Below are positions 2,906-5,783 of a stretch of DNA of 64,000 bases, piece by piece. The translations under genes were made by a program, and so were the position numbers. This stretch comes from Haloferax marinisediminis (GTDB lineage Archaea; Halobacteriota; Halobacteria; Halobacteriales; Haloferacaceae), in the NCBI RefSeq assembly GCF_009674585.1, contig NZ_WKJP01000001.1, forward strand, positions 1,922,001-1,986,000. The letters are read 5' to 3'. The notes beneath the pieces were generated by a model. The model saw only the letters and a list, made by a program, of their open reading frames with translations, did no database searches and was not told the DNA's origin. Position 1 is the first letter of the stretch; each line of letters opens with the position of its first letter.

Positions 2906-3955
2906 TCAGAGTAGTGAATAAATGTTGGATTCGTACGTCTCACGCACTCTATCGCCCCAATTGTGGGTGTACGTGTCGATGATGTCGCCAGCGACGTCGC
3001 CGCGGAGATATTTCACGATACCACGGTCACCGGTCCGGTCACGGAGATGGGTCGTGAAGAAGTGCCTGAAGTAGTGGGGTGTAACGTTCTCTTCGCGGTC
3101 TCCACCCCTGCGGTACCACCCCGCATCGGCGGCATGCGAGGTCACGATGTGGTGCACTGCGTCCGGTGTCAAGCGCGTTCCCCACCCCGAGGCAGTCCCG
3201 ACGAACAGCGGTTCTGCGGGTGATTCAGTATCTGGACGAATTGCGAGCCAGCGCAGGAGAACGGTCTCGACTTCGTCGTCGACGGGGACGACCGTCGAGC
3301 GTTTTCGCTTGTTCGAGGCCGTCCGCGTCTCACCGTTCGTGACGGTTCCGACGCTCGGTTCAGAGGAGACGTATATCGACGGACCACGCCCATCGAGTGC
3401 GGCACGGGTCGATACACTGGCTAGTGGTGTGTCGATGGACAGCGACAGGTCGCGTAAGTCGAGGTTGCACAGTTCGCCGACACGCATCCCGGTCTTGAGG
3501 AGGGTAACGACGAGTGCGTGTTCGAGTGGATGGTGGATTTCGCGGACGAACTCCCGCATTTGCGGGACCGAAACCTCCCTTCGGGCGGGGTTGGTGTCGA
3601 TTTTTTCGTCCATCTCCTCCATCACGAGCCCCATCGGGTTCGAGTCGAAGACGCCGACTTGGGCCATGTAGGCGTAGAATCGGTGCAGATAGGAGGCGTA
3701 CGTCGCTACCGTGCTGGGTGCGACGGCCCGGTTTCGAAGGGTGTGTATCCAGGCCATGCAGTCGCGGTGACTCGCTTCGTCGACCGACTGTGCGGTTCCA
3801 GTGGGGTTCCGAGACGGGTCTCCGAGGAACGATTCGAACGCTCTGAGCACTCGTTCGTAAGCCGCACGGGTCCGGTCGGTCTTCCCGTGATAGGTCATAT
3901 CTTGGAGGAAATACCCGACTGGATCGTCCACATCTGCCGGTCGCTCAGCGGCCAT
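2906..3955 (-). CDS. Tyrosine recombinase / integrase (XerC/D-like, haloarchaeal type)
   Basis: A full-length tyrosine recombinase of 349 residues. An N-terminal SAM-like DNA-binding domain (about 10-110, with TVATYASYLHRFYAYM) precedes the catalytic domain (about 128-345). Visible catalytic residues are Arg158 in LLKTGMRVGEL, a Lys-rich beta-hairpin around 216-219, the H294-x-x-R297 motif in TPHYFRHFF, and the probable nucleophile Tyr329 in IDTYTH. The usual second-box LGH histidine is absent: the aligned stretch reads YLRGDVAGD. The gene overlaps the upstream DUF5805-like gene by 11 bp, so the two are translated from one transcript. It may act in chromosome-dimer resolution, integration of an element, or local inversion. 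No attachment site was proven, and the AT-rich DNA upstream could be a target. Confidence 0.85.
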   Translation of the reverse strand: MAAERPADVDDPVGYFLQDMTYHGKTDRTRAAYERVLRAFESFLGDPSRNPTGTAQSVDEASHRDCMAWIHTLRNRAVAPSTVATYASYLHRFYAYMAQVGVFDSNPMGLVMEEMDEKIDTNPARREVSVPQMREFVREIHHPLEHALVVTLLKTGMRVGELCNLDLRDLSLSIDTPLASVSTRAALDGRGPSIYVSSEPSVGTVTNGETRTASNKRKRSTVVPVDDEVETVLLRWLAIRPDTESPAEPLFVGTASGWGTRLTPDAVHHIVTSHAADAGWYRRGGDREENVTPHYFRHFFTTHLRDRTGDRGIVKYLRGDVAGDIIDTYTHNWGDRVRETYESNIYSLL

Positions 3956-4391
3956 CGTCCTCAGCTAACGTGTACCCGCCATGTCGTCCACTGTACACAA
4001 CTCGACCCGACGACTGGAGGTCTTGGAGGGTCGCTTCGAGACGTTCTTCGATGTCGTCGGTCAGCGCCGAGACGAGGTCGTCCCACGAGAGGTGTGAGTC
4101 GGCCGCTAACGCCTCGACGACTCGGCCTGTGAATCCTTCGTTAATTCCATCCTCTGTAGATTGATTTGAACTGCCGTTCTGGAGGGCCGTTTCACCCCCA
4201 TCAACCCCTGGGGTTGTGGCCGTCTCATCACCTCTCTCGGGAACGTCGAAATCGGCGCGACCCGCCTGTACCATCGTTCTGACAAATTCACTCTGACTCA
4301 TGCCGAGTTGGTCGGCGTGGTCCTTCCAGACCTCCTTCTGGTGGGCCGGTACGTAGGTTTGAACCGTCGCCCGGTCGGCCTCGTCGCTCAT
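3945..4391 (-). CDS. DUF5805-like DNA-binding partner of the recombinase
   Basis: A 148-residue protein. Residues 1-50 (RATVQTYVPAHQKEVWKDH, then QLGMSQSEFVRTMV) look like a ribbon-helix-helix type module of the haloarchaeal DUF5805 family, as I recall it. A low-complexity linker (about 55-85) leads to a C-terminal winged-helix-like part (about 90-145, LSWDDLVSALTDDIEERLEATL ending GGYTLAEDDGR). The ATG at 4391 (MSDEADRATV) is preferred over 4421, because it begins the conserved module and the upstream ten residues are unlike it. It overlaps the recombinase start by 11 bp, which implies translational coupling. It is likely an accessory factor or autoregulator that binds the dyad at 4431-4470. 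That role is inferred from context only. Confidence 0.7.
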   Translation of the reverse strand: MSDEADRATVQTYVPAHQKEVWKDHADQLGMSQSEFVRTMVQAGRADFDVPERGDETATTPGVDGGETALQNGSSNQSTEDGINEGFTGRVVEALAADSHLSWDDLVSALTDDIEERLEATLQDLQSSGRVVYSGRHGGYTLAEDDGR

Positions 4392-4430
4392 GGATGGGTC
4401 GACTCGGGGGGCGATATTCAATCTACCGGC

Positions 4431-4470
4431 ACTATCACGAATAAGAGACCTTATCTGAAATTGTGATAGT
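4431..4470. promoter_or_regulatory. Nested palindrome upstream of the recombinase operon
   Basis: A perfect 8-bp inverted repeat, ACTATCAC at 4431-4438 and GTGATAGT at 4463-4470, encloses a second perfect dyad, ATAAG at 4441-4445 and CTTAT at 4450-4454. The block lies 40-79 bp upstream of the DUF5805-like start codon (4391), where a regulator could control the operon. It could also be a core recombination site, since tyrosine recombinases use inverted arms around a short spacer. The repeats are seen directly; the role is inference. Confidence 0.5.
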
Positions 4471-5783
4471 GGATTTTTGGCAAAAATATCGAGTTATCCT
4501 AATTAGTGCACCCCTCAAATTGGCTATTTGCTAGTACAATTCAGGATAAGTATATTCTCTCGATTCGCCCGATTTCGGGCGTTTCGAGCATATCTGAAAA
4601 TCCACTCAGAATGTGTCCTCTAATAAGGCACAGAATACTCGCCGAGTCATCTCTATTTTGGAACACATGCCGAAATTTGGATGGCTGTTCTCCTCGTGTT
4701 TACCCTCGGAGTTGGGGTGCCAAGATATGTCTTCAGCGGGTTCGTTATTTCACCATATTATTCTCTGAATGATTATAAAATCTCGATTTATGATATTTGT
4801 GTCGTCGTTCGATACGGCAACAATAGTCGCGTAACTATCTCTAAATTTATCGAAACAATATTTTATTAGTTCAACAGCACCTATTTGTGATTTATATATC
4901 GAACACTGACCGATTATACCATAGAACCTGACGACGAAATTTGTCTATAGTTTCCAAGCTCAAATTGACTGGATTCAATGTGTATATATCGATCTCTTGG
5001 AGACGAAATATAGTCGTGATTTCCGAAGTCGTTGCCGCCACGTAGAGCAGTGTAGTGTTGTATCGAAACAACACGGTTCTATCTTCACATTTGACCGAGA
5101 CCGGTCCCCGAAGACTAGTCGGTTTGTCGTACCGATGCAGGCGTCGGCCGACGGTCGCGATCGTTCTGTGCAGCGTTGTTTGGTGGGTACTTCGCCGACG
5201 ACGAACGTGGTTGAAGCATCTCATTCGCTCGGCGTGAGATGCCGCTCAGTAGCTGTCTCTGGCGTTTCTTCTCCTCGTCGCCAACGTACCTCGAATATCG
5301 GAACCGCTCACGCTCTAGGGCGGCCTGAGGAGGTTACTGGCAACCACGACGCGTTGGGGGAGAATGGACTTCGCCGGCCGGTGGCTGTGCAGTCATTGGC
5401 GCTGCTGCGTCTGCCCAGCCGCACTCGACCCCTCGAACTCGGTGGGCCTCGGACACAACCTCGTTCGTCGATGTCCTCGATTTTCTTTGGACAGCAGAAA
5501 CTGCCACTGACTGTATCATCTCCGCTGGTGGCAAACCCATTCGGTCGACTCGCGGGAGTCGACTTGCGTTGACTGCGAGTTTTCTGGTTTCACACCGCAA
5601 TTTGGTCTGTTCTCTCCGATTTAACACGGTAGCGCTCGTCTGAACCGAGTATTTCGCTGTTCGCCAGCAAACCCATATATCACATTTCGCTATATACAAT
5701 CGGTAGTGCGCATCGAATCGAAAACTGTCTACTAACTCACCTCTGTAATCCTTCTTCCATCGGCCGAGATGGCCCTCTCACCG
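4471..5783. other. AT-rich 1.3-kb stretch with no convincing gene
   Basis: From about 4422 to 5100 the DNA is markedly AT-rich compared with the rest of the window, with runs such as AACAATATTTTATTAG, then drifts back to higher GC towards 5783. Open frames are present (for example 4681-4869 plus, which starts with a hydrophobic stretch, and 4892-5224 minus), but none has haloarchaeal codon bias, an acidic product or a recognisable family. A 20-bp hairpin sits at 5544-5563. The stretch may be remnant foreign DNA associated with the recombinase. I see no tRNA, transposase remnant or clear repeat array. Confidence 0.5.
5544..5563. repeat. Perfect 8-bp inverted repeat with 4-nt loop
   Basis: GTCGACTC at 5544-5551 and GAGTCGAC at 5556-5563 pair perfectly around GCGG. 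The hairpin lies in otherwise gene-free DNA, 220 bp beyond the 3' end of the minus-strand SRAP gene, too far to be its obvious terminator. It may be a small-RNA element, a protein-binding site or a remnant of mobile-element end structure. Confidence 0.4.

Follow-up and report, generated by a model that had tools for sequence, protein, structure and literature searches.

The closest described systems include the archaeal XerA/dif systems of the Thermococcales and Sulfolobales (Cortez et al., 2010; PMC2958812). Features shared with the locus analysed here are the inverted arms, the 6-bp spacer, the single copy, the location on the terminus side and the lack of FtsK. As here, dif lies close to xerA in the Sulfolobales, whereas in the Thermococcales it does not adjoin xerA. 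Unlike the present site, these dif sites are described without accessory half-sites in the available portion of that text, which also leaves haloarchaea unmentioned. The XerS/difSL and XerH/difH systems are alike in using one recombinase, with its gene beside the site (PMC5357621). The central region of difSL measures 11 bp as against the 6-bp spacer found here; both systems depend on FtsK, and accessory half-sites go unmentioned in the sections of that source at hand. At the plasmid Xer sites cer and psi, accessory DNA beside the Xer core confers selectivity for resolution, a further likeness; this DNA spans about 180 bp, is bound by PepA, ArgR or ArcA and, unlike the DNA here, contains no half-sites matching the core arms, as far as the same sections describe it (PMC5357621). 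The TnpI/IRS systems of Tn4430 and Tn5401 resemble the present locus in layout, with no homology claimed: the site lies directly upstream of the tyrosine recombinase gene and has four subsites, two extra repeats being added to an inverted-repeat core at which recombination takes place (PMC7157771). Promoters are found within this site, and TnpI modulates expression in Tn5401. TnpI/IRS is, however, a resolution system of transposons, whereas the site here stands beside a core gene of the order, and the extra motifs are two direct repeats in TnpI/IRS versus one direct and one inverted repeat here (available text of PMC7157771).

Archaea are without an FtsK homologue, so that control of dimer resolution must differ from that in bacteria, according to the accessible part of a review of archaeal recombinases (PMC8371274). 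In Haloferax volcanii, Xer-like genes have been said to suggest "the possibility of Dif sites", their role being left open, in the accessible text of a 2020 review of replication; four XerC/D-like genes of this species, which may or may not include the counterpart of the gene described here, can be deleted with viability kept (PMC7776575). HVO_1422 of H. volcanii is likewise termed XerC/D-like in two papers, no identity with the present gene being claimed. Neither a described haloarchaeal dif nor the protein family DUF5805, taken up below, was found in the literature searched, with subscription journals and preprints mostly outside its coverage.

The locus lies in a 64,000-nucleotide stretch of the Haloferax marinisediminis genome, here called the window. 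With a probability of about 0.82, the region upstream of its tyrosine recombinase operon is a chromosomal dif-type site furnished with accessory half-sites and belongs to an Xer-like system that relies on one recombinase and dates back to the ancestor of the order Halobacteriales. Sequence comparison brings out the core, the two half-sites, the linkage to the operon, a single copy where tested and a place in the half of the chromosome opposite the oriC1 marker; we infer that recombination would take place at the site. It would be a chromosomal dif equipped with half-sites of the IRS kind. The analysis names, for the whole order, a likely enzyme and a possible partner protein together with the exact 28-bp site and its two accessory half-sites; as the order includes the genetically tractable Haloferax, the question of a haloarchaeal dif becomes directly testable. 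The features of the locus are as follows.

2906..3955, minus strand: tyrosine recombinase gene, 349 aa, haloarchaeal Xer-type (PF00589, 56 bits; near-universal in the order)
3945..4391, minus strand: DUF5805 gene, 148 aa, overlapping the recombinase gene (PF19121; predicted DNA-binding)
4413..4433, minus strand: stretch between core and start codon, strongly conserved in Haloferax, AGTGCCGGTAGATTGAATATC, a probable promoter (alignment of 15 Haloferax loci)
4430..4471, no strand: outer dyad of the preliminary description, species-specific and unconserved
4434..4461, no strand: dif-like core of 11-bp arm, 6-bp spacer and 11-bp arm, ATCACGAATAA GAGACC TTATCTGAAAT (locus comparison)
4445..4450, no strand: 6-bp spacer GAGACC, predicted strand-exchange region, of fixed length and reverse-complemented between congeners
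4494..4503, minus strand: half-site A1, ATTAGGATAA, direct with respect to the proximal core arm, 43 bp upstream
4540..4549, plus strand: half-site A2, TTCAGGATAA, inverted, 89 bp upstream

The recombinase is matched in 145 of 148 genomes of the family, in 184 of 195 genomes of the order and in all 157 order genomes of good quality. Its best NCBIfam match is recomb_XerA_Arch (NF040815) at 109.2 bits, below the cut-off of 220 for that XerA model, which suggests an Xer-like family related to, yet separate from, archaeal XerA. The catalytic set of tyrosine recombinases is R-K-H-R-(H/W)-Y. Across the 170 aligned rows, residues R158, K216, H294, R297 and Y329 never vary, and residue 320, where His or Trp is usual, is Asp (motif YLRGD), again in 170 of 170. 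The low XerA score and this Asp both count against the dif reading. The same genome encodes a second, distant tyrosine recombinase (G000:C1:447371-448303, L002) with 32% identity.

DUF5805 is identified by its Pfam profile (PF19121, 89.3 bits against a cut-off of 28.5). Weak profile matches are to NikA-like proteins (15 of 35 members) and MCM4_WHD (19 of 35), and the predicted secondary structure places helices at 16-29 and 33-43, then at 83-97, 103-111 and 114-127 together with a beta hairpin (mean pLDDT 69). From these weak profiles and this modest model, the N-terminus is predicted to be ribbon-helix-helix-like and the C-terminus winged-helix-like. A fold search with the model returned nothing at E <= 0.001, the best match being a VapB chain at E = 0.11, and a sequence search of solved structures with DUF5805 gave nothing significant. 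An open reading frame of DUF5805 size precedes the recombinase gene in 80 named loci, with one doubtful reading (L319).

The preliminary description had drawn attention to an 8-bp dyad enclosing a 5-bp dyad, about 40 bp before a DUF5805-like gene that overlaps a tyrosine recombinase gene, and had offered two readings, an autoregulatory operator or a dif- or att-like recombination site. Both gene identities and the overlap hold, and the first ATG of the DUF5805 gene, at 4391 on the minus strand, is indeed 39 bp from position 4430. The outer arms are exact reverse complements, over 9 bp rather than the 8 given (4430-4438, CACTATCAC; 4463-4471, GTGATAGTG), and in the inner dyad ATAAG at 4441-4445 pairs with CTTAT at 4450-4454 as described. 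The centres of the two differ (4450.5 for the outer, 4447.5 for the inner), and the dyads are not concentric. When the 83-bp region was shuffled, 24 of 1000 approximate dinucleotide shuffles and 38 of 2000 base shuffles contained an 8-bp dyad whose gap did not exceed 40; the outer dyad, chosen post hoc, is by itself only mildly unusual. Its arms pair at 9 of 9 positions in the window only, and at 2-6 of 9 in the remaining 14 of 15 Haloferax loci, and as a functional element it was dropped. The inner 5-bp dyad taken alone carries no meaning; it is part of a wider element of arms, 6-bp spacer and two upstream half-sites. A shift of register turns the inner dyad into ATAA-N6-TTAT, as typically found in dif sites. 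The arm and spacer layout of 11-6-11 bp is likewise that described for dif in the available text of two sources (PMC8371274; PMC5357621). Of the two readings offered, the dif-like recombination site thus has good comparative support, whereas the operator role alone does not; and beside orthologous recombinase genes it is the outer dyad that goes missing and the core that persists, in 46 of 58 genera.

The search for the core across the order covered the interval 430-570 bp ahead of the recombinase start and accepted any of three 5-bp arm classes around a 6-bp spacer, with no more than one mismatch; symmetry and conservation were assessed on the inner 5 bp of either arm. From 170 loci read, four (L061-L064) were dropped as repeats of the genomes of L034, L032, L033 and L031, leaving 166, a chosen subset of the genomes with a recombinase match (145 in the family, 184 in the order). 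Of the 166 loci, 121 have two inverted arms around a spacer of exactly 6 bp, as in Xer/dif resolution sites, ahead of the DUF5805-recombinase operon; absolute counts of this kind are biased upward because the classes were defined from the same loci. Other spacer lengths (2-5 and 7-11 bp) account for 0-5 of the 166 loci each, and control windows further upstream contain a core in 0-2 of 136 loci versus 106 of 136 at the expected place, both controls sharing the same arm classes. The other 45 loci are without a core at <=1 mismatch in the expected window, and most of these have a site that is diverged or displaced. Diverged cores with more mismatches occur in Halobellus (g6) and some Haloplanus (g25), and the arms in Halobaculum (g5) are AATTA/TAGGA; in Halogeometricum (g26) and genus g8 the core is displaced. 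Counts of half-sites and spacers given below refer to 160 loci in 55 genera, six loci having been set aside for want of a confident site at the default place; two of the six do carry a site (L102, displaced; L068, diverged), and in the upstream DNA of the other four (L147, L152, L059 and L138) no confident site was found. The core position in L013 and L022 was set by hand.

The arms vary between lineages in a coordinated manner on both sides. Most lineages have GATAA/TTATC, genera g3 and g4 have GATTA/TAATC, and g11, g20 and one genus of family f12 have TCTTA/TAAGA. Such covariation is the pattern that selection by a protein reading both arms would be expected to produce. In one g28 genome (L106), two core-like sites lie 63 bp apart, at about -541 and -478.

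Upstream of the core, similarity to the locus' own core arms, genus-averaged across the order, peaks at -43 on the same strand (A1) and at about -89 on the opposite strand (A2). A core with two extra motifs upstream of a recombinase gene is the arrangement of TnpI/IRS sites, from which the locus departs in that A2 is inverted and the neighbour is a core gene of the order rather than a transposon function. A score of at least 7/10 is reached by A1 in 63 of 160 loci (27 genera; control windows 1-13) and by A2 in 77 of 160 (29 genera; control windows 2-15), in each case under half of the loci, which counts against the reading as a whole. When the arms were swapped for those of another genus, the mean match of A1 and A2 was lower in all 200 trials (0/200 reach the observed value); the half-sites covary with the core arms. 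The recombinase would be a candidate to bind A1 and A2 as well as the core. Alignments of g1, g3, g14 and g25 seem to show a further box, GTAC- or GGTACC-like, some 10 bp beyond each half-site on its outer side and also at the right arm of the core, a possible target of DUF5805. The interval 4501-5000 of the window, containing A2 and the DNA upstream of it, is AT-rich, at 39% GC versus 51-65% elsewhere in the first 12 kb.

The position of the site was measured against an Orc gene (orc1-1) beside a signal-peptidase-like gene, which from the Haloferax gene order we take to mark oriC1 and which is present in 50 of 50 genomes. Two other Orc genes were tried as origin markers and replaced, having been found in 19 and 29 of the 50 genomes at the cut-off used. 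Angular distances between this marker and the locus were calculated with contigs taken as complete circles. In all 50 chromosomes or chromosome-sized contigs they fall between 100 and 179 degrees (median 162; at least 150 in 34 of 50), which puts the locus on the terminus side throughout, as for an Xer/dif site. The gyrB gene served as a control; it is 45 kb from the site in the window and more than 100 kb from it in 26 of the 50 genomes. Among these 26, the site has a median of 161 degrees (minimum 102) and gyrB one of 140 (minimum 39), with p = 0.04 across related and hence non-independent genomes, and the site is closer to the antipode than gyrB in 15 of 26. Position supports a dif function and is partly shared with neighbouring genes, which makes it only partly independent evidence. 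An origin-type gene is also present near the presumed terminus: of 20 chromosomes with the site and a second conserved Orc-type gene (for example G000:C1:1818627-1819823, L190) on one contig, 18 have the two 86-326 kb apart.

The site is also single where copy number was counted. Over the six contigs of its own genome, the 20-base core has one match at <=3 mismatches, which means that the other replicons are without the site. Among 52 Halorubrum genomes, 35 contain the sequence ATAAGTGACCTTAT exactly once each and 17, whose spacers differ where the sequence is known, are without it; a control sequence was never found. The single copy thus extends to the 35 matching Halorubrum genomes, and 29 of 30 inspected ATAAGTGACCTTAT loci lie directly before DUF5805.

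By the mechanism that we propose, the recombinase would bind the two arms of the core, two copies of the site on sister chromosomes would synapse, and strands would be cut at the ends of the 6-bp spacer and exchanged across it, converting a chromosome dimer to two monomers. Less certainly, the accessory half-sites, perhaps with DUF5805, may assemble the synapse in a way that makes resolution likelier than fusion, as at res, IRS and cer-type sites; because archaea are without FtsK, these half-sites are a candidate source of selectivity. The recombinase could instead act at this site in a main role other than dimer resolution, such as decatenation, the upkeep of its own locus or, where cells are polyploid, the control of inversions. 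Haloarchaea are polyploid, H. volcanii has many XerC/D-like genes of which four are dispensable (accessible text of PMC7776575), and inversion of the spacer, described below, would imply that antiparallel exchange is tolerated. Dimer resolution nevertheless fits best a single copy opposite oriC1 and conservation across the order, and a different main role is considered unlikely.

Comparison of spacers within genera provides a separate line of evidence. Among 731 within-genus pairs, 138 spacers are identical and 100 are exact reverse complements, while none is a plain reverse or a complement. Most of the inverted pairs come from Halorubrum; without this genus 12 of 296 pairs are inverted, and inverted pairs are seen in 6 of 28 genera with at least two loci. 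A Halorubrum tree of 30 rows, several forks of which are poorly supported, requires at least 7 changes of orientation, compared with 14 changes of spacer sequence in all. Loci L357 and L351 are about 90% identical across 700 bp downstream, and beside the core they have the same bases except for the inverted spacer, with an asymmetric fifth arm base unchanged. Such asymmetry of the fifth base, with T to one side of the spacer and C to the other, is seen in many Halorubrum loci, and the base keeps its place when the spacer inverts. Replication slippage would hardly produce inversion of a block confined to the inner 14 bp, which an enzyme cutting at both spacer ends could achieve with ease. Exact inversions between close species may have been left behind when the recombinase occasionally carried out an antiparallel or hairpin-type exchange. 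Template switching at a hairpin during replication could also generate them, in which case they would be uninformative on recombinase activity, and small loop inversions between inverted repeats are indeed known elsewhere; the non-flipping fifth base in many Halorubrum loci, however, leaves a stem of 4-5 bp only, and template switching, which competes with this one line of evidence alone, seems quite improbable as the source.

A broader proposal, made tentatively and held at somewhat under even odds, is that haloarchaea possess a self-contained, FtsK-free form of dimer resolution, in which the dif core, two accessory recombinase half-sites and DUF5805 as a dedicated DNA-binding partner would constitute, on the chromosome itself, a topological filter of the IRS or cer kind and the near-palindromic arms would permit occasional inversion of the spacer by the enzyme. 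If true, past recombination could be read from genome sequences in the form of spacer inversions.

The site might also be solely an array of operators, at which DUF5805, with its predicted ribbon-helix-helix and winged-helix parts, binds the half-sites and represses its own operon, with no recombination. In most loci the DUF5805 start follows closely on the site, the protein looks DNA-binding, and repeated half-sites would fit a cooperative repressor. The module does not, however, always stay with its promoter. In Haloferacaceae archaeon XH8 (L102), the clear case, the whole A2-A1-core module is kept 3.2 kb from the DUF5805 start and about 3.7 kb before the recombinase start, with A1 still at -43 and A2 at -89, and VapBC-like and other genes intervene. 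Displacement is partial in L024, where a gene resembling an HNH nuclease lies between core and DUF5805 (-1086 to -441 from the recombinase start), and in genera g8 and g26, where extra DNA separates the two. An operator serving DUF5805 alone would not be expected to survive displacement as in XH8 and L024; nor does repression account for block-wise inversion of the spacer. The site has a dif architecture, and a recombinase gene adjoins it. A purely regulatory role is thus judged very unlikely. Autoregulation through the recombination site itself is possible, since the core adjoins the likely promoter, and binding there may, again with less certainty, regulate the operon as well.

An attachment-site reading, in which an element integrated long ago would have supplied the recombinase as its integrase and the core as its att site, is scarcely credible, for although a tyrosine recombinase does adjoin an inverted-repeat core and, in XH8, a segment with VapBC-like genes separates the core from a right-half-like remnant close to DUF5805, the gene is near-universal in the order (in every genome of good quality), vertical inheritance of gene and site is largely seen across it, the window is without a tRNA gene, and no element with duplicated core ends was noticed in an unsystematic look through the loci read. 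Mobile elements using the site were also sought, by scans of viral contigs with 16-17-mers; the 46 and 10 stretches returned were judged unrelated from their listing, many of the 46 from the first scan having the pattern repeated several to tens of times. In XH8, the DNA from about -3670 to -400, between the intact core and the right-half-like remnant by DUF5805, contains VapBC-like pairs and a PLP-enzyme-like gene, and this segment may represent an insertion at the site.
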